Shown here: positions 2-38,894 of the stretch, in pieces
Position numbering within the stretch: position 1 is the first letter of the stretch
Layout of the letters: each line of letters begins with the position of its first letter
NCBI RefSeq assembly: GCF_003151135.1
Contig: NZ_QEQK01000001.1
Span: forward strand, 292,829 to 356,828
DNA from: Abyssibacter profundi
Lineage (GTDB): Bacteria; Pseudomonadota; Gammaproteobacteria; Nevskiales; OUC007
Direction: 5' to 3'
DNA: 64,000 bases
Position numbers and translations under genes: made by a program
Notes under the pieces: generated by a model
What the model saw: the letters and a program-made list of their open reading frames with translations, nothing else
Told to the model about the DNA's origin: nothing
Databases searched by the model: none

Positions 2-832
2 CTGTTGCATGCGCTTGCGGCGGCCCTGGGCTGGCTGCTGTGGTGGATTCCCAATCGTCGGCGCGAAGTGGTGCTCACCAATCTGCGTCACTGCTTCCCC
101 GAGCTACCCAAGCCCGCGCTGCATCGCCGCGCCCGACGGTCGCTGGGCCATGAGCTGAAAACCCTGTTCGAGTCGCCGGTGATCTGGATGGGCAGCGAAC
201 GCCGCCTGCAGCGCCTGATGCGTGAAATGCGGGGTCTGGAGCATCTCGACGCCGCACTGGCAGCTGGTCGGGGTGTTCTGTTGCTCACACCTCATCTCGG
301 CAGCTTTGAGGTGCCGGCGCTCATGCTGTCGCGCCAGCACAGCATGGTTGGCCTCTACAAGCCCCAGCCCGGCAGCCTCAATCGCCTCTCTATCGAGGGC
401 CGCACCCGCTTCGGCGCGCGCATGGTGCCAACGGAAGGCAGCGTGACGGTCCGGGCCCTGCTGCCGCAGCTACGCGACAACGGAATTGCCTACTTTTTGC
501 CAGACCAAGACCCGCCTGCCGGCCGCGGCGTGTACGCACCGCTCTTCGGCATTCCCGCTCATACACCCAAGCTCGTCGCCAGACTGGTGCAGTCGACCGG
601 CGCACGGGTGGTGTTTTATGTCGGCGAGCGCCTGCCGTGGGGCCGTGGCTATGTGACGCACTTCTGTCCGGCACCCGAGGGCATCGACGACCGGGATATT
701 CAGCGCGCGACGCAAGCCCTCAATGCTGGAGTCGAAGCCTGTATCCGCCGCTGCCCGGACCAGTACTGGTGGGGCTACAAGCGGTTTCGGCGCCGGCCGC
801 CAGGCGCAGCGGCGTTTTATCGCACCCCCTGA
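2..832 (+). CDS. LpxL/HtrB-family lipid A acyltransferase, 5' end cut off by the window
   Basis: Late acyltransferase that transfers a fatty acyl chain from acyl-ACP onto lipid A at the inner face of the cytoplasmic membrane. The frame is open to the window edge, so the true start lies upstream and about 20-30 N-terminal residues are missing. A hydrophobic stretch (LAAALGWLLWW) opens the visible part and fits the N-terminal anchor. The catalytic HX4(D/E) signature is seen as HLGSFE, and the later DQDP segment is typical of the family. Lauroyl and myristoyl transferase types cannot be separated from sequence alone, so no symbol is given. The convergent YceK-like gene starts only 14 bases past the stop. 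Confidence 0.9.
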   Translation: MLHALAAALGWLLWWIPNRRREVVLTNLRHCFPELPKPALHRRARRSLGHELKTLFESPVIWMGSERRLQRLMREMRGLEHLDAALAAGRGVLLLTPHLGSFEVPALMLSRQHSMVGLYKPQPGSLNRLSIEGRTRFGARMVPTEGSVTVRALLPQLRDNGIAYFLPDQDPPAGRGVYAPLFGIPAHTPKLVARLVQSTGARVVFYVGERLPWGRGYVTHFCPAPEGIDDRDIQRATQALNAGVEACIRRCPDQYWWGYKRFRRRPPGAAAFYRTP

Positions 833-5505: not shown

Positions 5506-6354
5506 ATGGAGTTCGAACCCCGTCGCCTGCCGGGTCACCCCCGCGACATTCGCAATCGCTGGCTGCGCACGGCCTGGTCGCTCATCCGCCGCAAGCTGCT
5601 GACGGCCGTGATTGGCTGCCTGCTCTATGGTGCCGCCATCGAACTCATCGACCATCACGGCACCCCAGCGCTGGATGACCCCTGGGGCCTGATCACCTGG
5701 CTGACGATGGTGCTGGCGATCTGCGCCACCGCGCCGTGGTTCATGGCGGCCATCATGGGCGTGGCCTACGCTGCGGATCACAGCCGCAATGCCTTTGCGC
5801 TGTGGCGCGACCTGTTCCTGGGGTCGTCACGTCGCCTCATCGGCCCGCTATCACTGCGGACCATGCTGATCTACGGCGGCGTGCTCTGCGGTGCGCAGGT
5901 GGCCCTGCTGGCGCTCACCGAGTGGCTGCTGGTGCCCGCCGAGCCGGAGCAGTCACCACCCGTGCTCTGGGAGCCGTCTGGCCCCATTGCCTGGCTGCTC
6001 ATCGGCTGCGCCGAGCATGTCTGGTATGCGGTACTGGCGTCGCCGCTCGCGGTGGCCCTGGCCGAGTTGTTCGCCATTCCTGTGCTGATGCGCACCGAGT
6101 CCGACCGGGTGCAGGCGATCAGGCTGTCGGCCCTGGGCGTGCAGCGCAATCTCGGGCCCATCCGCCGCTGTTATGTGGGCCTGCCCCTCATGCTGCTGGC
6201 TGCGCTGCTGCCGGGGCCCATCACCATTCTGGGGTTCGGGTTTGCGTCGGTGGTGGTGTACGTCGCGTATCGCGAAATCTACGAGGCCCGGGCAGAGAAC
6301 CTGCCAGAGACCGCGCACAGCGCCGCCTTCGTTCCGGCCGCGCCACCAGGCTAG
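5506..6354 (+). CDS. Multi-pass membrane protein of unknown function
   Basis: 282 residues with about five or six hydrophobic segments (for example 32-50, 62-90, 123-142, 160-190, 225-255) and basic cytoplasmic loops. I do not recognise a named family or catalytic motif. It begins 23 bases after mtgA on the same strand and probably shares its transcript. No clear ribosome binding site precedes the ATG. Confidence 0.7.
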   Translation: MEFEPRRLPGHPRDIRNRWLRTAWSLIRRKLLTAVIGCLLYGAAIELIDHHGTPALDDPWGLITWLTMVLAICATAPWFMAAIMGVAYAADHSRNAFALWRDLFLGSSRRLIGPLSLRTMLIYGGVLCGAQVALLALTEWLLVPAEPEQSPPVLWEPSGPIAWLLIGCAEHVWYAVLASPLAVALAELFAIPVLMRTESDRVQAIRLSALGVQRNLGPIRRCYVGLPLMLLAALLPGPITILGFGFASVVVYVAYREIYEARAENLPETAHSAAFVPAAPPG

Positions 6355-7295: not shown

Positions 7296-8462
7296 TCAGC
7301 GCACAGTCCAGATCAGCATGAGCGTGGGATCGGCCAGCTCAGCGTCGCCACCGCTGCGGCGCTCGCGCAAGTCGGCGACCAGTTCCAGTGAGGGCCGGGC
7401 GCTTGGCGAGAAATAGCCCCCTAAATGCCGAGGCGTCCAGCGCAGGCGGCCGTTCGCATGGGATTCGGTCACCGAAGCCTGCGCCCAGACCTGGTCGCGA
7501 TAGGCGCGGTCCACCCCAACTTCAAGATGAACGTCCGACCACAGGGTGTCGGCGATGGCCTGAACCCCCGCATGTACGGCCATGTTGTGTCCGGCCGCCA
7601 GGTCATAATTCGACGCGGTGGTCCACGCCCGCAGCCGCAGGCGACGCCACGGCAACTCGGCAGACAGGTTCACAATGCCGGCCCGGGTGAGCGACCGGGT
7701 CTGATGCCTGCGTGTCTGCTGGTGAAACCATTCGGTATTGAGGTTGAGCAGCACCCGGCCCAGCTGCTGCCCCATGCCCAGGCGCAGACGTGTTTCGGTT
7801 TGTTGCCTCCAGCCCACCGCCACGCCGGCCGGCGCGCGATCCAGATGCTCCAGTTCGACACGCAGGCTGCGCCCACCGCGACGGATGCCATGCCAGCCCA
7901 CCCAGCGTCGCTGCGTACGGGTACGCTGCGGTTTGGAACGTTGCTGCACTTGCTCCGCCAAGCCGAGATTGATCTGCCCCCCCGCCCAGGGGCGTTCGAC
8001 ACGCAGCGCGCGACGCTCGCGGTCGCCGGCAAACCAAATATCGGTTGGCAAGGCGTAGTCCTCGCCAAACTGCTGCCAGTCCACCGCAACGCGCCAGACC
8101 CCGAACCGCCGCTGCACCGATGTCTGCAGGCTGGCGTCCTGACGCTTGCGATGGTTGAAGGCAGGGCGAGGCGCCAGCGAGTGGTAGTCGATGCGCGAGA
8201 CCACACTGAGACTGTCATCGCGCCATGCGAAGTCGCCGGCGAGCGATAGGTCAGACACATCGCGCACCCGCGCATCCGGCTGCAGCCACAGCCGATCGGG
8301 TTCGCGGGCCTGCGAACGGATACCCGCCTCCCAACCATCGGCCGTCAGGCGAATGGCGGACCCGTTGATATGTTGAATCCACTGCACGCCGATGGGCGGG
8401 TTATCCACGGCCTGTGCCGCGCCTGGCAGGGCGACGGATAGGCCAAGCAACAACCGGCGCAT
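7296..8462 (-). CDS. Predicted exported beta-rich (outer-membrane barrel-like) protein, unknown family
   Basis: About 388 residues. The start at 8462 gives a clean signal peptide (MRRLLLGLSVALPGAAQA); an ATG ten codons upstream at 8492 is the alternative. The rest is dominated by alternating polar/aromatic strands with frequent W, Y, R and short turns (for example GVWRVAVDWQQFG, RVLLNLNTEWFHQQ), ending LMLIWTVR. A terminal hydrophobic/aromatic strand is typical of outer-membrane barrels. I do not recognise a named family. It may share a transcript with the downstream ECF sigma gene. Confidence 0.65.
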   Translation of the reverse strand: MRRLLLGLSVALPGAAQAVDNPPIGVQWIQHINGSAIRLTADGWEAGIRSQAREPDRLWLQPDARVRDVSDLSLAGDFAWRDDSLSVVSRIDYHSLAPRPAFNHRKRQDASLQTSVQRRFGVWRVAVDWQQFGEDYALPTDIWFAGDRERRALRVERPWAGGQINLGLAEQVQQRSKPQRTRTQRRWVGWHGIRRGGRSLRVELEHLDRAPAGVAVGWRQQTETRLRLGMGQQLGRVLLNLNTEWFHQQTRRHQTRSLTRAGIVNLSAELPWRRLRLRAWTTASNYDLAAGHNMAVHAGVQAIADTLWSDVHLEVGVDRAYRDQVWAQASVTESHANGRLRWTPRHLGGYFSPSARPSLELVADLRERRSGGDAELADPTLMLIWTVR

Positions 8463-12402: not shown

Positions 12403-14211
12403 TCAGAACAGGCTGGCGGCACCGGCCTCGGCGCCGTTATTGGCCGCACGCAACGCGGAGAACAACTCGCGTCCGTAACCGGGCGGGCTGGTCGGCACCG
12501 CCGCGACCTCACGCATGGCCCAAACCGACGCGGAGACCTGCGCTTCCAAGGTGCCGCGCTCACCGTCCAGGCGAATCACATCGCCGTCTCGCACCTTGCC
12601 CAACGGTCCGCCGTCGGCCACCTCCGGGGTGACATGGATGGCGGCCGGCACCTTGCCGGATGCGCCTGACATGCGCCCGTCGGTGACCAGCGCCACCTTG
12701 AAGCCGCGATCCTGCAAGACACCGAGCTGCGGGGTGAGCTTGTGCAGTTCCGGCATGCCGTTGGCTTTGGGCCCCTGACCGCGTACCACCGCGACCAGGT
12801 CATGGTTCATGCGCCCGGCCTGGAATGCGTCGATCAGCGCCTGCTGATCCTCGAAGACCATGGCCGGCGCTTCGATGACGCGGTGCTCCGGCTTAACCGC
12901 CGATACCTTGATCACTCCACGGCCGAGATTGCCATCAAGCACGCGTAGCCCACCCGTGGGCGCGAAGGGGTTGTCCAGACCGCGCAGCACATCGGTGTCA
13001 CCGCTTTGAGCCGGCGCGTCCACCCATTCGACACGACCATCCTCTGCCAGTCTCGGTTCGCGGGTATAGGCCGACAGGCCGGAGCCGACGACGGTCTCGA
13101 CATCTGGGTGCAGCAGCCCGCCGCGCAGCAACTCGGCCATAAGAAAACCCATGCCGCCGGCGGCGTGAAAGTGGTTCACATCCGCGCTGCCATTGGGGTA
13201 GATCTTCGCCAGCGACGGGGTCACCGCCGACAAGGCGCCGAAGTCATCCCAGGTAACGATCAGCCCGGCAGCCCGTGCCATCGCCACCAGATGCAGGGTG
13301 TGATTCGTTGAACCACCCGTGGCCAGCAGCCCCACGATGGCGTTGACGAAGGCGCGCGCGTCGAGCATGTCACCGATCCCGCGCTCGGCCGCATGGGCCA
13401 GCCGACCACATTGCCGCGCCGCCTCGGCGGTCAGCGCATCGCGCAGGGGCGTATTCGGGTTCACGAAGGCGGTGCCCGGCAGGTGAAGGCCCATGACCTC
13501 CATCAACATCTGGTTGGAGTTGGCCGTTCCGTAGAACGTGCAGGTGCCGGGACCATGATAGGCCCGTGATTCCGCCTCCAGCAGCTCGGCCCGACCGATC
13601 TTGCCCTCGGCAAACTGCTGGCGAATACGCGCTTTTTCATCATTCGCCAGCCCGGAGGTCATGGGCCCGGCCGGCACGAACACCGTGGGCAGATGACCGT
13701 AGCTCAGCGCGCCGATGACCAGCCCGGGAACGATTTTGTCGCAAACACCCAGCGCCAACGTGCCGTCAAACATATCGTGGGACAGCGCGATGGCGGTGGC
13801 CATGGCAATGACGTCGCGGGACAACAGGCTGAGCTCCATCCCCGGCTGGCCTTGGGTGACGCCATCGCACATGGCGGGCACGCCCCCGGCGAACTGGGCC
13901 GTGGCCGTCACTTCGCGCGCAGCGGCCTTGATCAGCTCGGGATAGGCGCCCAGGGGCTGGTGCGCGGACAACATGTCGTTATAGGCCGAAACAATGGCCA
14001 GATTGGGCCACTGCAGCCCCGCCAAAGGGGGCTGGTCCGAGCCGGCCGCTGCAAATCCATGTGCCAGATTCGTGCAGGACAGGCGCCCGCGAGCCCGGCC
14101 CTGTGCCCGCGCGGCACCAAGTTGTTCTAGATAGCCTGCCCGCAAATCCTGGCTGCGAGACTCGATCCGTGCCGTGACTTCCGCCACGGTCGGGTGTAGC
14201 GGTTCAACCAT
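12403..14211 (-). CDS. edd: 6-phosphogluconate dehydratase
   Basis: Dehydrates 6-phosphogluconate to KDPG, the committed Entner-Doudoroff step. 602 residues, IlvD/Edd family; it shows [32 protein letters not shown], the GGSTNH segment and [12 protein letters not shown], which supply the iron-sulphur cluster cysteines and active site. First gene of the leftward edd-eda-ppc operon and divergent from zwf-pgl, so one 240-base region controls both arms. Confidence 0.97.
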
Positions 14212-14451: not shown

Positions 14452-15916
<1,465 letters not shown>

Positions 15917-15927
<11 letters not shown>

Positions 15928-16609
15928 CTGGTTTGAATTTCCCGATAGAGATGCACTGGCCGCAGCGCTAGGCGCGCGCATCGGCGAACGACTCGCGGAA
16001 GCGATTGATACCCGCAAGCAGGCCTCGTTGGTGGTTTCGGGTGGTCGTACACCCGTTCGCCTGTTTGGCGCGTTGTCGAAGCTGCCGCTGAACTGGTCCA
16101 GCATTCATGTCCTGCCCGCTGATGAGCGCTGGGTCGACGAACAGGAAGCCGCCAGCAACGTTGGGCTGATCCGCCGTGAACTGGTTCGCGACCAGGCGGC
16201 CGCCGCGCATGTCATCTCTCTTAAGACGCCGCATACATTGCCGGAATCTGGCCAGATGGTGGCCGAGGCCCGCGTAGCCGAGGTCGGTTTTCCGCTGGAT
16301 GTCGTGGTCCTCGGCATGGGCAATGACGGCCATACCGCCTCGTTATTTCCCGACGCGCCAGAACTCACCGGCGTGCTGGACAGCGACCACGCCTGCGAGG
16401 TGGTCCGCCCGCCCAGCCAGCCCACGGCGCGGATGACGCTAACACCCGTGGCCCTGAACAACGCCCGACATCAGTTTCTGCACATCGAGGGTGATGACAA
16501 GCGCGAGACGTTCGAACGTGCCATTGCTGACCGCGATGTCGAGGCGATGCCCGTGCGCACCGTGCTGTTCGATCGCGGGCCCCGTCTGCAGGTTTACTGG
16601 TCGCCCTGA
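15917..16609 (+). CDS. pgl: 6-phosphogluconolactonase
   Basis: Hydrolyses 6-phosphogluconolactone to 6-phosphogluconate, between Zwf and Edd. 230 residues from the ATG at 15917 (preceded by GGAGG). Signatures SGGRTPVRLF (41-50), PADERWV and LGMGNDGHTASLFP match the DevB-type family. It overlaps the zwf stop by 11 bases and the convergent gene at 16594 by 16 bases. Genes for all the Entner-Doudoroff steps from glucose 6-phosphate are thus in this locus; no glucokinase is nearby. Confidence 0.95.
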
Positions 16610-17679
16610 GCGCCCTGCCCCGTCCATTGCTCGAACCCGGGATTGCGAACGGCGTTGGGTGTGGGCCGTTCACCAGGTCGTAACGCGGGCTCGTGCGGCA
16701 CGAGTTGCACATCGTCCATGTCGATGCCCCCCTGCCCGGCCAGCACAATACCCAGCTCGACGCGCCGACCCTGTAGATCAGCGCTCCCGGTGATGACCCG
16801 ATGCACCGACCAGTCCGTTGTCAGCGCATCGCGCGCCCCATATCCCGGGGCGGAATGCCATTCCTGTCTGCGCGTGCCCGCATATTCCACATGCCAACGT
16901 CCACCGGCGGCTTGCCGCGCCAGTGCGCCACGCAACCACCAGCGGGCTTCCAGTTGCGGCGCTGTCCACTCGGACACATCGACGGTCTGAATCAGCACAG
17001 CCTCGCCTTCCGGATTCTCGACGGCGTTGCGTAGACGCGCAGCCCAGCCTCCGCCACGGCCCGCCACACGCTCGGCTGTGTATTGGCCGTCAACCGTCTG
17101 GCGCAATGTCCAGTGCCGAGGCAGCTCCAGCGTGATGGCCGGGTCCGAAGCTTCCCTGGCTGCCTGGGCGGCTAGCCAAGCGTCGGTTGGATGGACCGGT
17201 TCGGCCGGTAAGCTTGAGTGCAATGCGTGATCCTCCGGCTCATCGGCAGCCTGCAGGCCATCAACGACACTCCGTGCCCCAGTCATCTCCCCGTTCTGGG
17301 TTGGTGCAAGGCTGACCGGCTCCCGACCGGCATTGCCCTGTGCAAGTTGGCGCAGCCGGGCCAGCAAGGCGTAAGCGATGACCCATCGGGCCTCGCCAAC
17401 GCTGGCCCATGCGGCATCCTCGTCACCACCGACATTCAGAATGGCCTGGCCATCGGGATGATCCAACCGCAGCCAGGCTGCCGCATGGTCCACACGCAGG
17501 TCTGAATACGGCAGTTCAGCGGGTGCGTTGGCCATCAGGTCATCGCGTAAGTCTGACGGCAAAGCCTGCCCGCTGGGCCAGGACAACTCCGTCGGCTCCT
17601 CACGGGTCCGGTCGACGAGCGTGATCCATGCCGCTACGGCGACGAAGACTGCGAGAGCGATAGGGCCGACGCGCTGCAT
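16594..17679 (-). CDS. Membrane-anchored protein of unknown function
   Basis: 361 residues with one N-terminal hydrophobic anchor (IALAVFVAVAAWITLV) and a large extracytoplasmic part. The C-terminal 150 residues are beta-rich, with W(R)AGRGGGWAARL and IDMDDVQLVP followed by NAVRNPGFEQW, which recalls carbohydrate-binding or jelly-roll modules. That is only a resemblance. Its ATG overlaps the stop of the ABC exporter gene (TAATG), so it is probably made together with it. Confidence 0.65.
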   Translation of the reverse strand: MQRVGPIALAVFVAVAAWITLVDRTREEPTELSWPSGQALPSDLRDDLMANAPAELPYSDLRVDHAAAWLRLDHPDGQAILNVGGDEDAAWASVGEARWVIAYALLARLRQLAQGNAGREPVSLAPTQNGEMTGARSVVDGLQAADEPEDHALHSSLPAEPVHPTDAWLAAQAAREASDPAITLELPRHWTLRQTVDGQYTAERVAGRGGGWAARLRNAVENPEGEAVLIQTVDVSEWTAPQLEARWWLRGALARQAAGGRWHVEYAGTRRQEWHSAPGYGARDALTTDWSVHRVITGSADLQGRRVELGIVLAGQGGIDMDDVQLVPHEPALRPGERPTPNAVRNPGFEQWTGQGAQGDQ

Positions 17680-19496
17680 TACCGACCTGTTGAGTCAGAT
17701 GGCCCCGACGCCTGCTCGGCCTGTTGCAAGGCCCACAGATCGGCATAGCGGCCGCCACGCGCCAGCAGCTGGCTGTGATGGCCGGTTTCGACAATACGTC
17801 CCTGCTCCAGCACCACGATCCGGTCGGCATCGGCCACGGTGGACAGGCGATGGGCAATGATCACCGTGGTCCGGTCAGCCGCCACGGCGCGCAGGGCGCG
17901 GACCACCGATTGCTCGGATTCCGAGTCCAGCGAACTGGTGGCCTCATCGAACAGCAGAATGCCCGGCTGCTTAAGCACCGCGCGCGCAATGGCAACGCGT
18001 TGCTTCTCGCCGCCGGACAGCTTGAGCCCCCGTTCGCCGACCTGGGTGTCCAGGCCGTCCGGCAAGCTGGCGACAAAGGCTTCCAGGTGGGCCAGACGCA
18101 ACACCTCGTCAATCGCCTGCTGGCTCGCCTGGGGATTGCCGTAGGCGATGTTGTAGCCCAGCGTATCGTTGAACAGCACCGCGTCCTGCGGGACCACACC
18201 GATATTGCCGCGCAGGCTGGCCTGGCTCAGCCTGCGGACATCATGGCCGGCAACCCGGATGACGCCGGTGTCTACGTCGTAGAAACGGAAGATCAATCGG
18301 GCAAGCGTTGACTTGCCGGCACCGCTGGAACCGACCACAGCAACCGTCTCCCCAGCCGCAACCTCCAGACTCACGCCCTGCAAGATGGGCCGGCGACTGT
18401 CGTAGCCGAAGTGGACGTCTTCGAAGGCGATGGCGGCTGGAGCGCGGGGTATGTCCACGGCGGGCTCCGGGTCCTGGACCTCCGGCTCGATATCGGTGAG
18501 CCGGAACATGCGACCAATATCGGCCAATGCCTGTTTGATCTCGCGGTAGACGAAGCCCAAAAAGTTTAGCGGCACGAACAACTGCAGCATGTAGGCGTTG
18601 ACCAGCACCAAATCGCCCAGCGTCATCGTGCCCGCGACCACTTGACGACCCGCCAGCACCATCATGACCGTCACGGCGCCACCCACGATCAGCGCCTGAC
18701 CGAGGTTCAGCGTCGCCAGCGACACGCGGTTCTGGGCCATGGCGGATTCCCACTCACCCAGGCTATCGGCGTAACGGCGAGCTTCGAAGGCCTCATTACC
18801 GAAGTATTTGACAGTCTCGAAGTTCAGCAGCGCGTCGATGGCGCGGGTATTGGCACGCGATGCCAGCCGGTTCTGACGACGCACGTAGCCGGTTCGCCAT
18901 TCGGTCACGACCACGGAAAAGACGATGTAGAGGGTCACGGCCACGGCGATGACTGCGGCATAGGTCCAGGAGTAGCCCACCAGCAGAATGCCGGCGACCA
19001 GGCCGATCTCGATCAGCGTGGGCACGATGTTGAATGCCATGAACCGCAGCAGGAACCGGATGCCCGCGACGCCACGCTCGATGTCCCGCGACAATCCGCC
19101 CGTGCGCCGCGCCAGATGAAAGCCCAGATCCAGCCGATTGAGGTGATCAAAAACCTCCAGCGCCACGCGGCTCATCGCGCGCTCGGTCACCCGGCCAAAG
19201 ACCACATCGCGCAACTCACCAAACGCCACGGTGGCAAAGCGTAACGCGCCGTATGCCAACAACAGGGCCAACGGCAACACGATGACGGTCTGCTCCGCGA
19301 CATCCAGTGCATCGACGATGTGTTTGAGTACGACGGGCAAGGCCACCGTTGCTGCCTTGGCCGCGATCAGGCACAGGGTGGCCAGCAAAACACGGCCACG
19401 AAATGTCAGCAGATAAGGCGCGAGCCGCACCACGGCACGCCATTCACCGGGCTCGGGTGGACGCTGATCATCGGCTCCGGCGGTCGATGGCCTCAT
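17679..19496 (-). CDS. ATM1/HMT1-type ABC transporter, fused permease-ATPase
   Basis: 605 residues. The membrane domain (about 35-330) has six helices with the conserved ERGVAGIRFLLRFM and NFETVKYFGNE segments seen in ATM1-type half exporters. The ATPase domain has Walker A GSSGAGKST, the signature LSGGEKQR, and Walker B ILLFDEATSSLD. ATM1-like proteins export glutathione-type or sulphur-containing compounds and can confer heavy-metal tolerance; the substrate here is inferred only from the family. Translationally coupled to the downstream anchored protein. Confidence 0.92.
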   Translation of the reverse strand: MRPSTAGADDQRPPEPGEWRAVVRLAPYLLTFRGRVLLATLCLIAAKAATVALPVVLKHIVDALDVAEQTVIVLPLALLLAYGALRFATVAFGELRDVVFGRVTERAMSRVALEVFDHLNRLDLGFHLARRTGGLSRDIERGVAGIRFLLRFMAFNIVPTLIEIGLVAGILLVGYSWTYAAVIAVAVTLYIVFSVVVTEWRTGYVRRQNRLASRANTRAIDALLNFETVKYFGNEAFEARRYADSLGEWESAMAQNRVSLATLNLGQALIVGGAVTVMMVLAGRQVVAGTMTLGDLVLVNAYMLQLFVPLNFLGFVYREIKQALADIGRMFRLTDIEPEVQDPEPAVDIPRAPAAIAFEDVHFGYDSRRPILQGVSLEVAAGETVAVVGSSGAGKSTLARLIFRFYDVDTGVIRVAGHDVRRLSQASLRGNIGVVPQDAVLFNDTLGYNIAYGNPQASQQAIDEVLRLAHLEAFVASLPDGLDTQVGERGLKLSGGEKQRVAIARAVLKQPGILLFDEATSSLDSESEQSVVRALRAVAADRTTVIIAHRLSTVADADRIVVLEQGRIVETGHHSQLLARGGRYADLWALQQAEQASGPSDSTGR

Positions 19497-19520
19497 GCGC
19501 GGTCACGCTCTGCGCGGGCA

Positions 19521-20564
19521 TCAGCCACCGAGCACCTGCTCGGCGCGGGTGTCGATGCTGCGCAGCCGTTGCTCCAGTGTCTGACGTTCCTGGGCATCGG
19601 CGGTACTCAGAATGGCTTGCTGCATGTACGCCAGCCCGACATCCACATCGCCGGCCAGGTAATGGGTTTCGCCCAGCGCGAACATCAACGCCGCCTGCAT
19701 GGGCGCGACATCCTCACCGCCCATTTGCAGTTCATCGTAGGCACGCTGCGCGTCTTGGACGGCCGTCAGCGCCGATTGGGCTTGCCCTTGCAGTGACAGG
19801 TTCTCGGCCAGGCGCAATTGAGCCCGGACCCGCGCTTCGCCCGTTTGCTCGGCCACCAGGCGGCGCAGGGCGGACTCGGCACGTTGCAGGCGTCTGCGGT
19901 TGTCGGCCGGATCAAGCTGGAAGCGCTCGTCAGTGGCGCGCAGCGTTTCGATCTGCGCGAGCAGATCCAGGGTATCGGCGTCCATCACCGTATCGAGCAG
20001 CGGCGACAGCGCCAGCCACGCGCCCTCGGCATCCTGCTGCAGGAACAGCACGCGTGCCAGCGTCGTTTGCAGCGCTGCATCATCCGGGTGGCGGGCACGC
20101 GCCTGATGCAGCGCCCGCTCGGCATCCGCCGGGCGGCCCAGCATGACGAGGCATTCGGCCTGTCGGCGCAGCGACTGATGCCAGGGCCGTGAGCCTTCGG
20201 TGAGCGTCCGGGTCAGACCCTCCAGCCGCGGCAGCCAGTCCGCGCAAAGCTCGGGATTCAGCCGGTAACGCGCGAAGGTTTGCTGCATGCGCAGGTAGGT
20301 GTCCGGCAAAGGGTCGCCAGCAACCGATTCGGGAATATCCGCGACACGGTCCCGCTTCGCAGGCAGCTGATTCCCCAGCTGCGGATCAGATCCATTGGGT
20401 GAATGCGCCAGCAGCTTGGCGGGGGGAGCCATCGGCGCAGTCGGGGGCGCGGCAGTCACTGCCGGCGCTGTCGGCACTTGCTCGGGCTGAGGCTCGGGCC
20501 ACCACCACCAAAGCAGCAAGCCGCCACCCAGTACGGCGCAGAGCAAAACAGAGCCGCGCTTCAC
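19521..20564 (-). CDS. Signal-anchored TPR-like protein of unknown function
   Basis: 347 residues. An N-terminal hydrophobic anchor ending WWWW is followed by a proline/alanine-rich linker (about 25-55) and a helical domain. The helical part (about 90-345) has tetratricopeptide-type patterns such as AECLVMLGRPADAERALHQARARHPDD and LARVLFLQQDAEGAWLAL. It probably acts as a periplasmic interaction scaffold. It lies 24 bases upstream of the ATM1-like gene on the same strand and may be part of that transcript. Confidence 0.6.
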   Translation of the reverse strand: MKRGSVLLCAVLGGGLLLWWWWPEPQPEQVPTAPAVTAAPPTAPMAPPAKLLAHSPNGSDPQLGNQLPAKRDRVADIPESVAGDPLPDTYLRMQQTFARYRLNPELCADWLPRLEGLTRTLTEGSRPWHQSLRRQAECLVMLGRPADAERALHQARARHPDDAALQTTLARVLFLQQDAEGAWLALSPLLDTVMDADTLDLLAQIETLRATDERFQLDPADNRRRLQRAESALRRLVAEQTGEARVRAQLRLAENLSLQGQAQSALTAVQDAQRAYDELQMGGEDVAPMQAALMFALGETHYLAGDVDVGLAYMQQAILSTADAQERQTLEQRLRSIDTRAEQVLGG

Positions 20565-31425: not shown

Positions 31426-32808
31426 ATGCGCGCCACCATTGCACTCGGCATTGCCGTCCTCTTCGCCCTGCTGGGCGTGTCGCCCGTGTACTTCGGTGGC
31501 GTGATGGCGGATGCGTATTACGAAGGCCTGGAGCAGTGGATTCCCGACTGGGCGTTTCAGGTTCGCTCGGAGCGCTACCACCGGGGCTGGTTCTCTTCCA
31601 CCGCGCATGTCGAGCTGTCGCTCACACCCAGTCTTTGTGACACCCCGCCCTGCCCGGTGCTGCAGATGCAGACCCAGCTCACCCACGGCCCAATCCCGTT
31701 TGGCGCCACCGAGGCCTTGGGTGGCCAGAACCGCCTGCTGGGCGGGGTGATCCAGTCCACCATCGACCCCGCACCGCTGTTCCGTGCCGGCCGCATCGAA
31801 CCCGGCCTGCCACCGCTCAAGGCCTTCACCAAGGTGTATCTGACCGGCAGCAGCAGCACGCGCCTGGAAATGCCGGCATCAGGGCAAACCCTGCAAGCCG
31901 ACAGCGAACAGTTCAGCTTGGCCTCAGAGGGCCTGCTAGGCGTGATTGACCATCGGGGTGCCAGCGACCTGACCACCCATTTTGAAATGCCGCGCCTGGA
32001 AGCCACCGGCCAGCAGGGCCGGCAAGCCTTACTCAAGGGCATTAGCGTAGATTTCAGCGGCTCGCGCGAAGGCGAGTTGCTGCTGGGCGATTGGTCCGGC
32101 CAGCTGGATCGCATCCGCTTTCTGGCCCCGGAAGAAGACGCCCGCTACGCGCTCGATGCCCTGCGCCTGGGCGCCTCCACGCGACTGCGTGACGGGCTGA
32201 TTTCGGGCGACCTGAACCTCACGCTCGACCGGCTGGCCACCCCACAACAAACCGTGGGCGCCAGCCGCGGCAATATTCGCTTCGATCGCCTCGACGCCGC
32301 CACGTTGGTGCGTATTCGCAATGCCCTGCGGCCGGTGATTCGCGGCGAAGCGCCCTCGCCCGAGGCCCGGTTGGCGATTGCCGGCCTGCTGATGCAGTAC
32401 GGCCCGGCGCTGCTGCACCCAGGCCCGGAAATCACCTTTAACGACCTGCGCCTGGTCACCGACCGCGGCGTGGCGGCCGCCGACGGCAAGCTGCAGGTTC
32501 TGCCTGGCGCCGTCGACGGCCGACTCACGTTGGGCAAGCTGCTACGCCGCCTGGAGGGTGAGGCCGATATCGTGGTCGACGAACCCCTGGCCCGACAGTG
32601 GATGGACATGAGCGACCGTCCGGACCTGGCCTCCGCCCAGATGCCCGGCCTGATCGAAGACAACATTCTGCAGCGCACGCCAGATGACCAGATCGCCGTG
32701 AATCTCGAGTACAAGCAAGGCCGCCTGTGGATCAACGGCATCGAGAATGAACAATGGGCCGCGCTCATGGTCTTGCTGGACATGGGTTCCCTGGAGATCG
32801 ACTCGTGA
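31426..32808 (+). CDS. DUF945 (YdgA-like) family protein
   Basis: 460 residues with an N-terminal signal/anchor ([23 protein letters not shown]) and the family opening [28 protein letters not shown]. The rest is a long repeated beta-strand structure typical of the AsmA/DUF945-like envelope proteins. Function in the family is unknown. Its stop overlaps the mnmG start (GTGA), so mnmG translation is probably coupled to it. Confidence 0.82.
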
Positions 32809-34670
32809 ACACGGCATTCGATGTCATCGTTGTTGGTGGCGGCCACGCCGGCACCGAGGCCGCGCTGGCCGCCGCACGCATGGGTCGACGCACGCTGCTG
32901 GTGACCCACAGCATCGACAGCCTCGGCCAGATGAGCTGCAACCCGGCCATCGGCGGCATCGGTAAGGGCCACTTGGTGAAGGAGATCGATGCGCTGGGCG
33001 GCGTCATGGCCCGCGCCGCCGACGCCGCAGGTATCCACTTCCGCCGTCTCAATGCCCGCAAGGGCCCGGCCGTGCGCGCCACCCGCGCCCAGGCCGACCG
33101 CATGCTCTACCGCTACTTCGTGCGCGAGGCGCTCGAGCGGCAGGAGAACCTGTCGCTGTTCCAGCAGCCGGTCGCCGATTTGCTCTTCGAGGGAGAGCAT
33201 GTCGCCGGTGTCGAGACCGAAGGCGGGCTGCGTTTTCATGCCCGCGCCGTGGTGCTCACGGTCGGCACCTTCCTGGCCGGCAAGATTCATGTCGGCGAGC
33301 AGCAATCCGAAGGCGGCCGCGCCGGCGATGCGCCGTCCAACCGTCTGGCCGCCAAGCTGCGCGAACTGCCGTTCACCGTCGGCCGTCTCAAAACCGGCAC
33401 GCCGCCGCGCATTGACGGTCGCAGCATCGATTACTCACGTCTGCAAGAACAGCCGGGTGATGACCCGCGTCCGGTGTTCTCATTCCTCGGCAGCCGCGAC
33501 CAGCACCCGCGCCAGGTTCATTGCCACATCACCCGGACCAACGCCCAAACCCACGACATCATCCGTGGCGGCCTCGACCGCTCGCCCATGTATGCCGGCC
33601 GAATCGAGGGTGTGGGCCCGCGCTACTGCCCCTCGGTGGAAGACAAGGTTGTGCGTTTTTCCGACAAGGATTCGCACCAGATCTTCATCGAGCCGGAAGG
33701 CCTCAACACGACGGAGATCTACCCCAACGGCATCTCCACCAGCCTGCCTTATGACGTGCAGGTGGCGCTGGTGCATTCCATCGAAGGCTTCGAACAGGCG
33801 CATATCACCCGCCCCGGCTACGCCATCGAATACGATTACTTCGACCCGCGCGAGCTCAAGGCCACACTGGAGACCAAACATGTGCCCGGCCTGTATTTCG
33901 CCGGCCAGATCAACGGCACGACCGGCTACGAAGAAGCCGCTGCCCAGGGTTTGCTCGCCGGCCTCAACGCCGCCCGTGCCGTGGCGGACCAAGCGCCCTG
34001 GGTGCCGACCCGCAGTGAGGCCTACATCGGCGTGCTGGTGGACGACCTGGTGACCCGCGGCGTGCTGGAGCCCTACCGCATGTTCACCTCCCGCGCCGAG
34101 CATCGGCTGCTGCTGCGTGAAGACAACGCCGACCTGCGCCTGACCCCAACCGGCCGCGAGCTAGGCTTGGTCGACGACAACCGCTGGCAACACTTCGACG
34201 CCAAGCGCGCAGCCATCGAAACAGAACACCGGCGTCTGGCCACCACGCTGGTGCGTCCCGACGCCGCCCCTGCCGACTGGTCGCTCACCCAGGGGGTCCA
34301 CGCGCTGGAACTGCTACGCCGCCCGGAAATCACCCACGCAGGCATCGCCGAATGCATCGGTGACGGCAACGCTGCAGAAGATGTCGCCGAACAGGTCGAA
34401 ATCCAGGCCAAATACGCCGGCTACATCGACCGGCAGGAAAGCCAAATCAACCGCCAGCGGGAACTCGACCACACGCCGTTACCGGATGACCTCGACTACG
34501 CACAAGTCCACGGCCTGTCCATCGAAGTCCAGCAACGCCTCAACGAAGCCCGCCCCGACACCCTCGGCCGCGCCTCACGCCTGCCCGGCATCACCCCGGC
34601 GGCAATCTCGATCCTGGCCGTACACCTGAAGAAAAGCGGATATCGCGTGTCGGGAGAATCGGCGGCCTGA
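32805..34670 (+). CDS. mnmG: tRNA uridine-5-carboxymethylaminomethyl modification enzyme MnmG (GidA)
   Basis: FAD enzyme that, with MnmE, modifies U34 of several tRNAs. 621 residues from the GTG at 32805: FAD-binding [17 protein letters not shown], the second signature [17 protein letters not shown], and [11 protein letters not shown]. The GTG overlaps the DUF945 stop. In many gammaproteobacteria mnmG is followed by rsmG-parA-parB; here none of these follows, and a parB lies 20 kb away on the other strand. Confidence 0.97.
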
Positions 34671-34863
34671 TCCGTTGTCCGGGATGGCGCCGGAAACTCT
34701 ACGCTTGAACTGTCGTTGATTCGGGGGAGCTTACGCTGGGTCCGCCGGGATCGGCTCTGGAGTAGTTGAGAATCGGGCAAGAAGTAGCGCGAAAGCACAA
34801 CAAAGGCTGACGAAAGGACCGCAGTGCGCTCGATTCCTGCTGATTTCCTTAAATAAATAGGAA

Positions 34864-34924
34864 ACATAACGTCCGAATTCGGCCTGCCCAGCGAAGCTGG
34901 GCAGGCTGCAATGAGTTGTTATAC
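34864..34924 (-). other. attC-like integron recombination site after higA
   Basis: On the minus strand a 61-bp structure begins GTATAAC (34924-34918) and ends GTTATGT (34870-34864), matching R''/R' boxes with the core AAC and GTT bases. Between them is an 11-bp perfect stem (34882-34892 with 34896-34906, 3-base loop). The flanking L-box-like parts (ATTGCAGCC and GGCCGAAT) pair with one extrahelical base, and an unpaired spacer separates them from the R boxes. The higA stop codon TAA sits within the first box, as is common for cassette genes. There is no U tract, so a terminator is less likely. One position in each R box departs from consensus. Confidence 0.55.
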
Positions 34925-35209
34925 GGCTACTTTTTCGAGTGGCTGGATATGCTGGGATGGCCGTGTGGCCGATAGATCGTGGTTAGCCTGAAGGTTCAGC
35001 CAGAACTCCGGGGATGTGTTCAGTGCTTCCGACAGCAGCCACGCCGTTTCTGGAGTAACCCCGCGTTTCCCACGAACAATTTGATTGATGCGCTGTATGG
35101 GGATGCCGAGGTGATCTGCCAAAGCGCGTTGCGTCTGCCCCATTGGCTCCAGAAATTCCTTGAGCAAAATCACTCCAGGATGGGTTGCTTGGCGGTTTGA
35201 AGGAATCAT
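34919..35209 (-). CDS. higA: HigA-family antitoxin
   Basis: 96 residues, XRE-type helix-turn-helix (QRALADHLGIPIQRINQIVRGKRGV) in the VapI/HigA subgroup, with the typical opening HPGVILLKEFLEPMG. Start at 35209 with AGAGG six bases upstream. It neutralises HigB and usually represses its own operon. The gene is 16 bases behind higB, the usual toxin-first order of higBA. Confidence 0.9.
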   Translation of the reverse strand: MIPSNRQATHPGVILLKEFLEPMGQTQRALADHLGIPIQRINQIVRGKRGVTPETAWLLSEALNTSPEFWLNLQANHDLSATRPSQHIQPLEKVAV

Positions 35210-35225
35210 GATTGACCTCTCAACA

Positions 35226-35516
35226 TCAATGATAATCAGCGATTCGGACTTCGCTACAGTTCGATCCGAGCCACCGAAACACGATGCGCCACTGTGCGTT
35301 AATGCGGATGCTGTGAAATCCTGCGAGATCGCCGCGAAGTGCTTCAAGCCGATTACCCGGAGGTGAACGCAAATCGTTCAGGGATACCGCAGCATTCAAC
35401 AGATCGAGCTTGAGCAGGGCGGCATCAACGATGCTCGCTGGAATCCGCCGTGCTCGGGCACTGTTCTTGCCGTGGAACAGATCTTCAGTTGCCCGATCTC
35501 CGAATGACTGGATCAT
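35226..35516 (-). CDS. higB: HigB-family mRNA-interferase toxin
   Basis: 96 residues, RelE/ParE fold, plasmid-maintenance killer subgroup: MIQSFGDRATEDLFHG at the start, LNDLRSPPGNRLEALRGD in the middle, and the conserved IRINAQWRIVFRW before the end. It cleaves mRNA on the ribosome unless bound by HigA. The pair lies directly before the attC-like site and behind the PLD-SNF2 gene. Confidence 0.92.
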   Translation of the reverse strand: MIQSFGDRATEDLFHGKNSARARRIPASIVDAALLKLDLLNAAVSLNDLRSPPGNRLEALRGDLAGFHSIRINAQWRIVFRWLGSNCSEVRIADYH

Positions 35517-35630: not shown

Positions 35631-38600
35631 TTACGAAGAGTCGCCACCTGGCACGCCGACGATGCAGGCACGGATGCGCCGATCCAGCCCCTGCATCACC
35701 GGGATCTCGTCAAAATGCTGCATCACTTCCCTCTCCAACCAGTCGGCTCGCTCCGTCAGCGCGCCGCGCAGATCCTTCAACAAAAGCGGGCGAGTGCGAC
35801 GCGGCGCTTCGAGTTGTGAAAACCAGACCGGGCGAATCAAGTCCAGCCAGCGGGTTGCCAGTTCGTCCCAGTCGGGCTGCGCGTCCGGCGCCGGCGAATC
35901 AAGCAATCGAATCAGCGCATCCACGACGTCCACGGCCAGTTGTCGCTGCTGCTCAGCGGCACGCGCCCGCAAGTGCTTCAGGCACCACGCCATCTCCGCC
36001 AGAGCCCGTTGCTTCTTGCGCGACAGCAGCTCCCGTTCCACGAGCACGAGGCGACGGATGAACCGCTGCAACTCCTCGGCTCCGGCCTCGTGATCGGAAA
36101 GTGACACCACCTCGGGCCCCAACCGCTTTCGTAATCCATTGGCGACATCCAACAGCTCCGTCACGGCGGCGGCGTTGTAGCTGGGCAGCAAAATCCATCG
36201 AGGTGCGGCGAACGCACCGGCGGTGATACAGAAAAATGCCCACGGGCGCTTTGCGCCCACGAGGCTGACGCGTGACATAACGCGCTCACTGACGTGCCGG
36301 TAGTGCGCATAGGTTTGTGCATCGACCAGCGCCGATTCACCGCTGATCAGCATGCGGGCCGGAGCAAACGCATCATCCAGCCCATCCCAGGGCTGGGTTG
36401 CTGCCTGTTCGTATTCCTCGATCATCGATTCGACCCGGACCCGCGGCGTCTCATCGCGAAGGTGCTCGGGCAACGGCATGTTCGCGCCAAGCAGACTGTC
36501 CACGGTTTCGTAGCGCTGCACGAACTTCTCGTCGGCTGCCAGCGCAAACTCCGGTGCGTCATCAGGCCACCACACCTCTATTTCCTCATGTGCCGTATCC
36601 AGGCGATCCACGCGGCCCGCACGCTGCTCGGCGATTCGAACCACCGTCGGCATGTCCAGGTGGACCAGCGCCGAGGCGCGCTGAAGGTTGACCCCTTCGG
36701 AAAGGCTGTCGGAGCACAGGCCGATCACGTTGCGCGCATCCGAACCGGGCGCGAAGCGCTGCATTAGTTCGGCGCGTTCGCGCTCCGCTTCGCCCCAGCC
36801 CATCAAGGTCTCGAAGCCGCGCACCTTGCCGAGTAACTTGCGGATCACGGCCAGCGTGATCGGGCGCGAATCAAACGCCAGAATCAGAGAATGATGGCGC
36901 ACGTTCACCAGCAATTGCGCGGCCTTACGCTTCTCACGCGCATCCGACATCTCGCGGCAGCACGCCGCGATTTCCCGATAGATCGCCGCATCCTGTTCAC
37001 AGGCCCGCCGATGCGCCCGCGCATCGCTGAGCCAATCCGGCAACGCGATGCTCAGCTTGTTATTCGGCAGCTTTCCGGCCTGCTTGGCCAGCCGAGCCAG
37101 AATGTTGCCTCCCGGCGTCTTCTTTCGGAAGCCGGAGAGCCCGAACGCAGACACCGCGGCCTCTGTTCCCTCGATGTGTTCGATCAATGCCGCACGCGAC
37201 GAGCGCAGCGACGAAAGAATCAGGTACTGCACCAACTTGCACGCCCCGTGCAGGCGCCCGTTCAGATAATGATCTTCGGTCACGCCGAGGCGCTTCAAGC
37301 CCTTCGGCAACTCAATCGGTCGCTCGAAATGGGTCACACCGTGCAACTGGCTGCTCAGTTCCCGTACCCGCAGCGCTAAGGCCCGATCGGATTGCGGTTC
37401 GTCCAGGCGGTAGACCCGTGCCCGATGGCGCGGAAACCGGCAGCGCCGTCCGCCTTGATCCCGATAGCAGTCTGGATCGCGTTCAATCAGCGTATTGAGC
37501 ATCGCCTTGGTGCGCCGCACCGTGAACTTGCGAATCTCGTCTCGGAGTAACCGCGTCTCCTCCTCCGACAAGGTCCGCGACAGCCGGCGTGCACCCAGCA
37601 TCTTGTCGAAGGCTTCCAGCGTGGACGGCTCCAGGTTGTCGGCGCCCAGCATGTCGGCAATACGCAGTAAATCGGTCACGCTGCGATTGATCGGAGTGGC
37701 GGTCAGCATCACCACGTGATCGGCCATGTTGCGCAGCAACAGCTGCGTGCGCTTGGTCGCCAGGTTGAGGAAATTGTGGCCCTCATCTACACACAGGATT
37801 TGCGCGCGCCGCAGCGCCTCGACCTTGAGTTCATGCCCGTGGCTGGACTGATGGCTGAGGCCACCATGGGAGTAGACTTCCATGTCGATATTGGCGGCAC
37901 GCTTCTCCCGCTCCCAGTTCTGCATCACCGCTGGCGGGCATACCATGACCGTGTTGGCGCGACTTCGCATGCGCCCGCGCCGCGTGATCTGGTCGCGAAG
38001 TGCACCAATCAGATAGGCCCCCATGCGGGTCTTGCCGGCACCGGTGGCGTCGGCGATCAGCACGCTGTCGTGGTTGGAAACCACCGCCAGTGCCTGTGCG
38101 ATGCCCTGCCGCTGCGACGGCCAGAGACTGTCGGCATCGCTGAGGTAGTCGTCGCGCAGATAGTCTGCCGCCCACTCGCCCTCTAGCAGTTCCGCTGCCG
38201 CCCGAGCCAATGCCTCCTGCCAGCTCACGAAGCGCAACAGCTTGTGCAATAACGCAAGCAGATCTGCGTTGTAGTCTCGGCCCAGGCTCCAGTAACTCTC
38301 AGCCAGCCTCTGCAATTCCTCATATCGCTTGGGCTGCTCGGCCCGCTCGAAGCGGGCGTTGGCCTCGTACTGCGAACTCATGCCCGGATCGGTGAAATTG
38401 CTTGATCCGACACTGGCCGCCCGCTCACCGACGTAGATCTTCGCGTGCATGCGCCGCCCGCCACCCACGAACCGGGCCTGAACGCGGCCGGTTTCGAGCA
38501 GCTCGATGGCATGAATCAGCGCCGCCGAATGCATCAGCGAGATGTGCTGCTCCAGCCAGTAGGCCTCCACTTCGCGCGGAAAATCCTGGCCGTCGAGCCG

Positions 38601-38894
38601 GAACGAGCGGCTGCCATGAACGAACGGTTCGTGCCCGAACAGCACGCGCACCTGCTGCGCACGCACCTGGCCACAGAAGACGATGAAGCGATCCAGTGCG
38701 GCGTAGCCGGTCACCAGCAGCGGTGAGGCGGATTCCAGCAGATCGGCCTCCACCGGCTGCGCCACGCGGTAGTCGCCCAGATTGGTGGGGAAGCGCCGCT
38801 GGTCCGGTGGCGCGTGGCGCAGCTGCTTGTCTTCGTATCGAGCCTGGGCGTCGGCGAACAGGTCCAGGCTTTCGGTATCACGGCGACGCGGCAT
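35631..38894 (-). CDS. PLD-SNF2 helicase fusion, candidate antiphage or DNA-processing protein
   Basis: 1087 residues. An N-terminal phospholipase-D-like module (about 50-200) shows HAK (150-152) and GSSNFT (163-168); the usual HKD aspartate is replaced by Glu157. It is followed by a SNF2/superfamily 2 helicase: Walker A ADATGAGKTR (281-290), DEGH (370-373), LTATP (397-401), SEGVNLQ (about 732-738) and QRAGRVDR (757-764). The C-terminal 300 residues are helical and unassigned. Similar PLD and SNF2 parts occur as separate genes (drmC, drmD) in DISARM. Here they are fused and no methylase is present, so the role is inferred only. Confidence 0.85.
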   Translation of the reverse strand: MPRRRDTESLDLFADAQARYEDKQLRHAPPDQRRFPTNLGDYRVAQPVEADLLESASPLLVTGYAALDRFIVFCGQVRAQQVRVLFGHEPFVHGSRSFRLDGQDFPREVEAYWLEQHISLMHSAALIHAIELLETGRVQARFVGGGRRMHAKIYVGERAASVGSSNFTDPGMSSQYEANARFERAEQPKRYEELQRLAESYWSLGRDYNADLLALLHKLLRFVSWQEALARAAAELLEGEWAADYLRDDYLSDADSLWPSQRQGIAQALAVVSNHDSVLIADATGAGKTRMGAYLIGALRDQITRRGRMRSRANTVMVCPPAVMQNWEREKRAANIDMEVYSHGGLSHQSSHGHELKVEALRRAQILCVDEGHNFLNLATKRTQLLLRNMADHVVMLTATPINRSVTDLLRIADMLGADNLEPSTLEAFDKMLGARRLSRTLSEEETRLLRDEIRKFTVRRTKAMLNTLIERDPDCYRDQGGRRCRFPRHRARVYRLDEPQSDRALALRVRELSSQLHGVTHFERPIELPKGLKRLGVTEDHYLNGRLHGACKLVQYLILSSLRSSRAALIEHIEGTEAAVSAFGLSGFRKKTPGGNILARLAKQAGKLPNNKLSIALPDWLSDARAHRRACEQDAAIYREIAACCREMSDAREKRKAAQLLVNVRHHSLILAFDSRPITLAVIRKLLGKVRGFETLMGWGEAERERAELMQRFAPGSDARNVIGLCSDSLSEGVNLQRASALVHLDMPTVVRIAEQRAGRVDRLDTAHEEIEVWWPDDAPEFALAADEKFVQRYETVDSLLGANMPLPEHLRDETPRVRVESMIEEYEQAATQPWDGLDDAFAPARMLISGESALVDAQTYAHYRHVSERVMSRVSLVGAKRPWAFFCITAGAFAAPRWILLPSYNAAAVTELLDVANGLRKRLGPEVVSLSDHEAGAEELQRFIRRLVLVERELLSRKKQRALAEMAWCLKHLRARAAEQQRQLAVDVVDALIRLLDSPAPDAQPDWDELATRWLDLIRPVWFSQLEAPRRTRPLLLKDLRGALTERADWLEREVMQHFDEIPVMQGLDRRIRACIVGVPGGDSS

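Follow-up and report, generated by a model that had tools for sequence, protein, structure and literature searches.

A PLD–SNF2 fusion protein of Abyssibacter profundi as a candidate one-chain defense endonuclease

What does a protein do that joins a phospholipase D (PLD)-like nuclease part and a SNF2-type motor in a single chain? The question is raised by a gene in a 64,000-nucleotide stretch of the Abyssibacter profundi genome (contig NZ_QEQK01000001.1, positions 292,829 to 356,828), which we refer to as the window and whose own coordinates are used below. An earlier note on this DNA had described a 1087-residue fusion with an altered HKD motif. The analysis presented here suggests that the motif is ordinary and that the protein is, on balance, probably a dimeric, ATP-driven, SauUSI-like DNA endonuclease that holds nuclease and motor in one chain and serves in innate defense against invading DNA.

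The fusion gene and its conserved parts

The fusion gene spans 35631..38894 on the minus strand, stop codon included, and the features of its product and of the adjacent toxin-antitoxin pair given below lie on the same strand. The open reading frame (ORF) is intact, with 1087 codons read from 38894 to 35631, and frame 1 of the plus strand has many stops over the same stretch; the earlier note gave no strand. As judged from the sequences, the ORF is a real gene and no chance ORF, because nine further full-length homologues are collinear with it at 47-58% identity. These nine, which have the same layout and include proteins from Povalibacter uvarum (54%) and from a genome of the same order (G395, 58%), form with the window protein the ten-sequence alignment to which the counts of conserved residues below refer. 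Pfam finds SNF2-rel_dom (6e-18, best stretch 362-468), Helicase_C (6e-8, residues 693-765), and PLDc_2 (1.3e-5, residues 133-193) in the protein. For the whole protein PLDc_2 scores 25.5 bits, just below the cut-off of 27, and for the PLD domain scanned alone 29.4 bits, above it; the domain is present in all ten members. Given the intact ORF, the Pfam matches and the collinear homologues, the PLD-like and SNF2 fusion proposed earlier holds. An AlphaFold2 model built from the family alignment has a mean predicted local distance difference test (pLDDT) score of 74.7; the score falls below 50 at residues 1-28 and over most of 749-839. From the N- to the C-terminus the protein consists of a disordered tail, a PLD half-site domain (approximately residues 45-205), a helical linker, SNF2 lobe 1 (approximately 256-470), SNF2 lobe 2 (approximately 650-775), a loose linker, and an alpha+beta domain (approximately 870-1087).

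The PLD/HKD nuclease half-site domain (38280..38762), supported by Pfam, by the profile match to BfiI and SauUSI and by the model, carries the HxK, the GSxN, and the later Glu of one half-site, as expected for the PLD/HKD superfamily. In the sequence and the family alignment these elements are H150-x-K152-x4-E157 (38424..38447), G163-S-S-N-F-T168 (38391..38408), in which GSSN is part of the PLD active site and GSSNF is invariant, and E177 together with N179 (38358-38366). H150, K152, G163, S164, S165, N166, E177, and N179 are identical in all ten members, and H150, K152, E157, and GSSNFT at 163-168 lie where the earlier note had placed them. Its claim that Glu157 makes the HKD motif altered or special is not supported: the residues found at position 157 over the ten members are E, D, D, D, E, D, D, D, A, and Q (D six times, E twice, A and Q once each), and SauUSI has the same HxKx4E.

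The absence of the Asp of HxKx4D from the window protein, which has Glu instead, is not taken as disqualifying because SauUSI has Glu there and BfiI aligns Ser. The best match of the PLD-part profile is a virion nicking-joining enzyme (E 9e-7), by its alignment a PLD protein too, and the profile also matches BfiI (2c1l, E 1.6e-4) and SauUSI (7clg, E 0.017) with the H, the K, the GSSN/SSGN stretch, and the E aligned. The SauUSI motif is given as 119-H(X)K(X)4E-126 in PMC7913695 (PMC numbers here and below stand for passages of the papers cited), where SauUSI is described as a working PLD-motor nuclease with a dimer held via its nuclease domains and ATP-driven translocation. An altered catalytic site was considered and rejected. 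Since position 157 is variable and SauUSI carries HxKx4E, Glu157 appears to be ordinary within a conserved nuclease-motor family, with no sign of a changed mechanism. Only one PLDc_2 stretch per chain is reported by Pfam, and a second half-site within the chain, which would allow intrachain pairing, is unsupported. With one half-site per chain, two chains would have to pair.

The motor motifs are likewise intact, as the earlier note had stated. Lobe 1 (37485..38129) contains Walker A (GAGK288T), DEGH at 370-373, and TATP at 398-401, and lobe 2 (36570..36947) contains SEGVNLQ at 732-738 and QRAGRVDR at 757-764. We take these to be motifs I (G285-T289), II (D370-H373), III (T398-P401), V (E733-Q738), and VI (Q757-R764). 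Invariant in all ten members are G285-x-G-K288-T289, D370-E371-x-H373, T398-A-T-P401, E733, N736-L-Q738, and Q757-R-x-G-R-V-D-R764. The helicase motifs together with two RecA-like lobes of SNF2 type place the motor among the SNF2 proteins, and by sequence profile the solved structures that match it best are RapA (E 5e-12) and the Sulfolobus SWI2/SNF2 core 1z63 (E 2e-9). The structural matches listed for the motor are SNF2 motors: 1z63 (Z 17.6, 348 residues aligned, root-mean-square deviation (rmsd) 16.8), Snf2h (9e1u; Z 16.2, 329 aligned, rmsd 5.0), Chd1 and Isw1 (Z 15-16), and ZorD of Zorya (Z 15.7, 369 aligned, rmsd 5.7). The high rmsd to 1z63 probably means that the lobes are set differently in the model.

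The C-terminal alpha+beta domain (35634..36287) is predicted to have a fold that weakly resembles the C-terminus of RapA. The earlier note had found that the last 300 residues match nothing, which stands for sequence families, searched with the last 250 residues (838-1087), and has to be qualified for the predicted fold. No Pfam family matches residues 838-1087 at a meaningful level; the best, Sdh5 (E 0.0046), is taken as chance, and the best E value against PDB sequences is 0.75. Across the ten members no Pfam family matches this region in more than two, and no PADLOC family in more than one. Modeled alone, residues 838-1087 reach a mean pLDDT of 81.6, and Foldseek returned nothing for this model at E ≤ 0.001. 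Among 499 structures compared by VIA-align, RapA chains rank 1-3, with 8so8 (Z 6.7, 144 aligned, rmsd 10.9), 6bog_A (Z 6.2, 133 aligned, rmsd 10.9), and 8t0l_F (Z 5.5, 96 aligned, rmsd 3.5), and a fourth RapA entry, 4s20_K, ranks 8 (Z 4.3); Z values of this size are rated as common by VIA-align itself. The likeness, a modest lead, is worth mention because several RapA entries agree at the same chain end, the matches to 6bog_A and 8t0l_F covering the last 175 residues of RapA. No SRA or B3 chains were among the matches listed for the model, and an SRA-like domain could still be present.

A SauUSI-like reading and the known systems

Several lines of evidence argue for an ATP-driven defense endonuclease. 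The motifs are intact, the domain order is constant, and the key residues of both the PLD part (H150, K152, GSSN, and E177) and the SNF2 motor are invariant in all ten members. The PLD profile matches BfiI and SauUSI, and SauUSI, with its HxKx4E, dimerizes and translocates. Moreover, an alignment by hhalign to a second HKD-SNF2 family (L035, L042, L040, and L041) covers columns 52-781 (E 3e-35, probability 99.9), and there are sub-cut-off matches to known defense proteins. Finally, the gene occurs sporadically, its flanking genes are found without it in a related genome (L055), and restriction, toxin, patatin, or mobile genes are present at five of 12 homologue loci.

By analogy with the relatives we infer dimerization, cleavage, translocation, and a role in defense. 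Two protomers would pair via their PLD domains and so build a single active site from their half-sites (H150, K152, N166, and E177 of each), in the way of BfiI and SauUSI. Each protomer would load its SNF2 motor on double-stranded DNA and translocate, and the PLD dimer would be allowed to cut when the motor stalls or collides or when the C-terminal domain recognizes the DNA. The idea in the earlier note that the fusion could couple translocation to cleavage is borne out as far as the fusion of the two parts goes; the coupling is probable, by inference from the relatives. Within the chain, the C-terminal domain and a DLF motif in the N-terminal tail are candidates for marking DNA as foreign, and at some loci methylation by a separate restriction-modification system might possibly do so.

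How does the protein compare with characterized systems? SauUSI, a type IV restriction enzyme (7clg), is also a single polypeptide (953 aa) with an N-terminal PLD nuclease of the HxKx4E type, an SF2-class motor, and a C-terminal region (PMC7913695), and the window protein has the same kind of nuclease at the N-terminus of its fusion. However, the SauUSI motor is closest to HsdR/LlaBIII whereas that of the fusion is of SNF2 type, and the C-terminus of SauUSI consists of a helical coupler and an SRA-like recognition domain, neither of which was recognized in the fusion. BfiI shares a PLD half-site with HxK, SSGN, and E in which the HKD position likewise lacks Asp. It is not known to have a motor and carries a B3-type recognition domain.

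The combination of HKD nuclease and SF2/SNF2 motor has been described before. Type-2 BREX-related (BR) helicases have an HKD plus SF2/SNF2 layout (PMC12839542), and the fusion likewise combines HKD and SNF2 helicase. It differs from them in having its own C-terminus and N-terminal tail, and neither a DUF499 ATPase nor an N6-methylase nor DUF3780 was found by Pfam among ten window neighbors, to which this search of the genome was confined. PbeA of PbeABCD, one of the CxC ABC-ATPase systems, joins an HKD endoDNase with an SF2 helicase (PMC10853773); unlike in PbeABCD, no ABC-ATPase or DndE gene is among the annotated window neighbors, and the PADLOC match of PbeA to the fusion is weak and partial (18 bits). 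Other combinations of PLD with helicase or Snf2 listed as defense are the phospholipase D-like anti-phage protein NF042964 (37.2 bits, below the cut-off of 1100) and, in PADLOC, PLD_Helicase and C3a139 "HKD+Snf2" (20 and 25 bits). DISARM (DrmD and DrmC) and Dpd (DpdE and a PLD nuclease) also contain an SNF2 motor and a PLD nuclease in one defense system (for the PLD genes, PMC12458937), but as separate genes of multi-gene systems, whereas the window has one fused chain. The matches to DrmD (60.7 bits, cut-off 610) and DpdE (74.8 bits, cut-off 500) lie below the curated cut-offs; partial sub-cut-off NCBIfam matches to DpdE, DrmD, and phospholipD_antiphage occur in all ten members, as do those to RapA.

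The second HKD-SNF2 family, which is taken to be BR-like, also lacks the Asp at the HKD position. In a genome of the same order as the window genome, the stretch 10472-17147 of L035 (minus strand) encodes one of its members and, after it, a protein of 1144 aa that NCBIfam does not match at 1e-10. Thus, HKD-SF2/SNF2 fusions are already known in the form of PbeA and the type-2 BR helicases, and the window protein is a variant without recognizable partners in the window. On close homologues with a settled function, which the earlier note had said would count against its proposal, the outcome is divided: the architecture has been described as a restriction effector, but no characterized homologue of the exact family was found in the searches made. 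The present data delimit an uncharacterized HKD-SNF2 family with nuclease and motor in one chain, which offers a simple test bed for the coupling of an SNF2 motor to a PLD nuclease.

The distribution of the family is patchy. In a draw of 369 genomes from the class (E limit 1e-30), ten besides the window genome have the gene, with full-length copies in seven and partial copies, all at contig ends, in three (G266, G265, and G362). Counting the window genome each time, the gene is present in 11/369 genomes of the class, 1/398 of the phylum, and 2/85 of the order (the latter two at an E limit of 1e-60). Draws of orders around other carriers gave 1/11 (around G334) and 1/3 (around G121), in both cases the central genome alone, and 2/3 (around G266). 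The fusion was not found in two genomes of the same genus (88% and 94% complete) or in one other genome of the family (98%). The latter (G371, L055) carries the flanking genes without the fusion gene, in the order mnmG, four short ORFs (66-203 aa by crude calling), YgjP, WYL, and the RmuC region. On the contig of the same genus (L054), likeness to the window stops at mnmG. Together, these two loci indicate that the gene was gained in the window genome or lost in the others. In L054 the similarity breaks after mnmG at 3614, and 86 bp of mnmG (window 34290-34375) are repeated 2.6 kb farther downstream, at 6173-6258; in this genus, insertions may favor the 3′ side of mnmG. No phage record matched the fusion protein, the 16 matches on plasmids are remote and none spans 80% of the query, and viral contigs hold six remote relatives (23-25% identity).

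To survey the neighborhoods, 28 ORFs from 12 of the 13 homologue loci were compared with Pfam, one to four per locus, with L033 left out; L030 and L031 come from a single genome, as separate contigs. The five loci with restriction, toxin, patatin, or mobile/transposase genes are L002 (HipA, AIPR, a relaxase, and a type I R subunit), L024 (a type I R subunit immediately upstream of the homologue and an Mrr nuclease immediately downstream, with an OLD-type ATPase and a RhuM/Fic protein), L026 (a ResIII helicase of 1091 aa with an N6_N4 methylase), L029 (HipA, SprT-like, and transposase), and L032 (patatin). At L026, the ResIII/SWI2_SNF2-type helicase, which has no NCBIfam match at 1e-10, and the methylase, together at 15093-19879 on the minus strand, lie directly upstream of the homologue and by sequence look like a type III-like restriction-modification pair. 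In a comparison of 1024 open frames (80 codons or more) from the window and 13 loci, similarity across loci is limited to HipA (L002 and L029), ABC-transporter-like ORFs (L023 and L034), and an ORF that immediately precedes the fusion in L034 and L023; none of these similarities involves the window. The last ORF lies at 96-812 (plus strand) in L034, where the contig starts, and recurs at 8140-8328 (plus strand) in L023 as a 63-residue piece with 60% identity. It has no Pfam match and is possibly a lost partner gene that decayed in L023. Overall, the homologue neighborhoods lean toward defense without proving it.

In the window itself, the gene at 32754-34670 is presumably mnmG, and Pfam identifies the ten neighbors as HigA, HigB, DUF2855, YgjP, DUF6498, WYL, RmuC, RimK, a putative zinc protease, and DUF945. 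Four points weigh against a defense endonuclease. The window copy sits among housekeeping genes and genes of no assigned role, not in a defense island. Neither a methylase nor a known recognition domain was found by Pfam in the chain or in the ten annotated neighbors. At seven of the 12 loci, the neighbors checked belong to ordinary families (acetyltransferase, DUF1499, DUF488, TENA, and GDT1) or to none, and the searches yielded no defense assay of the family.

In this context it is possible, if unlikely, that the protein is an effector in need of partners, either as the orphan of a multi-gene system of the type-2 BR or PbeABCD kind, with which it shares the HKD plus SF2/SNF2 layout (PMC12839542 and PMC10853773), or as an accessory that uses the self/non-self marks of restriction-modification. 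The type I or type III-like restriction genes at L002, L024, and L026, the methylase at L026, and the ORF upstream of the fusion in L034 and L023 are consistent with such a role, but the ten annotated window neighbors include no methylase, DUF499, DUF3780, ABC ATPase, or DndE, and apart from that upstream ORF the loci share only HipA-type and ABC-transporter ORFs, none of which is in the window.

The N-terminal DLF motif and further alternatives

Residues 1-28 of the fusion are predicted to be disordered (pLDDT below 50), and at residues 9-13 this tail carries SLDLF (38856..38870). Conservation of this hydrophobic-DLF motif is a new element here. In the 12 N-termini compared, which comprise the ten full-length proteins and the partial L030 and L032, DLF or SLF lies inside the called ORF in 11: SLDLF, TLSLF, NLDLF, NLDLF, TLDLF, QFDLF, NDLF, TLDLF, TPDLF, TYDLF, and TIDLF. 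L12 and F13 are identical in all nine sequences that reach them, within a tail in which the commonest residue at columns 2-9 and 14-24 occurs in at most five of ten. Shuffling of the 11 tails gave DLF or SLF in 0.5-6% of the shuffles per tail, and [D/S/E]LF occurs in the first 30 residues of 13 among 221 ORFs (at least 150 aa) of the fetched loci, nine of the 13 being members of the fusion family; the tails are related and hence not independent trials.

By its sequence the tail looks like the clamp-binding consensus QL(S/D)LF minus its Gln. Measured against a sliding-clamp ligand of the form Q-hydrophobic-x-[L/M]-[F/L] in an accessible tail, the first position is Gln in one of the 12 N-termini (L026) and Asn in two (L023 and L024). 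This Gln is described as important and not essential, and Asn as a mild change, in PMC11139829, which also places the clamp motif of Hda in a disordered N-terminus. A recent precedent among helicase-nucleases is RecBCD, which uses a short motif to bind the clamp (PMC13254535).

Could the tail be what directs the enzyme to new DNA? The protein would then be a one-protein immune enzyme that docks by its DLF tail on the beta sliding clamp, of the host or loaded on phage or plasmid forks, whereupon the motor runs along the new DNA and the PLD dimer cuts, with replication state as the signal. If true, recognition of replication state would account for the lack of a recognizable methylase or recognition-domain partner of the window copy, and a real clamp ligand in the tail would tie replication to DNA restriction by a short stretch that is easy to mutate. 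We consider this version unlikely; clamp docking is not favored because Gln is found in only one of the 12 tails. Two further points speak against reading DLF as a motif. In L029, STDLF occurs only upstream of the first ATG/GTG/TTG, shortly after a stop codon, and N-terminal [D/E]LF is present in three of seven remote HKD-SNF2 proteins (L035 and L037-L042) as SELF (L035 and L042) and RDLF (L040). Judged by eye, the latter belong to a strand, "LFIVDN", about 20 residues before its aligned counterpart RFPxN in the window family, and were not counted as the motif. No title linking the sliding clamp with defense or anti-phage activity was among the full-text literature matches listed.

Two side observations concern such tails. 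In the homologue of L029 (genome G223), the tail lies in frame upstream of the first start and near the stop, at about 14150-14210 on the minus strand, which may reflect an error in the sequence, a defective gene, or the use of a rare start codon. At L056, a protein encoded at 14568-16847 on the plus strand begins MQDLF and thus has an N-terminal DLF as in the fusion; by its look we take it to be a UvrD-type helicase.

The same tail admits a role outside defense, in which the nuclease-motor would be brought to forks by its DLF motif and process stalled forks or protein-DNA roadblocks as a genome-maintenance enzyme. The conservation of DLF within an otherwise diverged, disordered tail, the clamp-binding RecBCD (PMC13254535) and the several copies that stand among housekeeping genes and genes of no assigned role fit this proposal. 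However, the gene is too sporadic for a housekeeping function, given 2/85 genomes of the order and neither of the two from the genus, and we regard the proposal as improbable.

Even less probable is a PLD domain that has lost catalysis and is kept for DNA binding or dimerization in an ATP-driven remodeler resembling RapA. RapA is not known to have a PLD domain. It is like the fusion in its SNF2 motor and, weakly, in the fold of its C-terminus, and it has TUDOR domains where the fusion has the PLD domain (PMC12839542). The Asp position is indeed unconserved in the family, but BfiI and SauUSI lack this Asp as well (alignments; PMC7913695), and the H, K, GSSN, and E are invariant in all ten members.

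The adjacent HigBA pair

Downstream of the fusion gene lie a HigB-like toxin gene (35226..35516; PF05015, 1.6e-18) and a HigA-like antitoxin gene of the HTH_3 type (34919..35209; PF01381, 4e-12 on the longer ORF), neither of which is counted in the system. The HigA ORF is open from 35347, with the likely ATG at 35209. That the HKD-SNF2 gene and HigBA, which adjoin on the same strand, form one functional unit of nuclease and toxin-antitoxin is hardly credible: HigBA was rejected as a partner because it is missing from the 13 homologue loci (tblastn with HigB and HigA, nothing better than E 0.09) and has an attC-like end, which together with an integron integrase in the genome gives it the look of an independent cassette.

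This end is an attC-like hairpin (34863..34922) at the HigA side, recognized from an imperfect inverted repeat with 27-nt arms (74% complementary) and from its folding as single-stranded DNA (-17 kcal/mol, z -4.1, none of 200 shuffles as good). The HigBA end reads TAAC...CGTTATG, which resembles the form of an integron attC site. No second copy of the 81-base attC-like site was found in the genome at E 0.01, and diverged attC sites are still possible. On contig C19 of the genome (G000:C19:61757-62701) lies an integron integrase gene whose product scores 462 bits against a cut-off of 265. Six weaker integrase matches in the genome lie under the cut-off, and in 14 control genomes sub-cut-off matches occur in all and matches above it in none. 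Probably, then, HigBA is a single cassette of an integron that was inserted next to the fusion gene, at a distance from the gene for the integrase.

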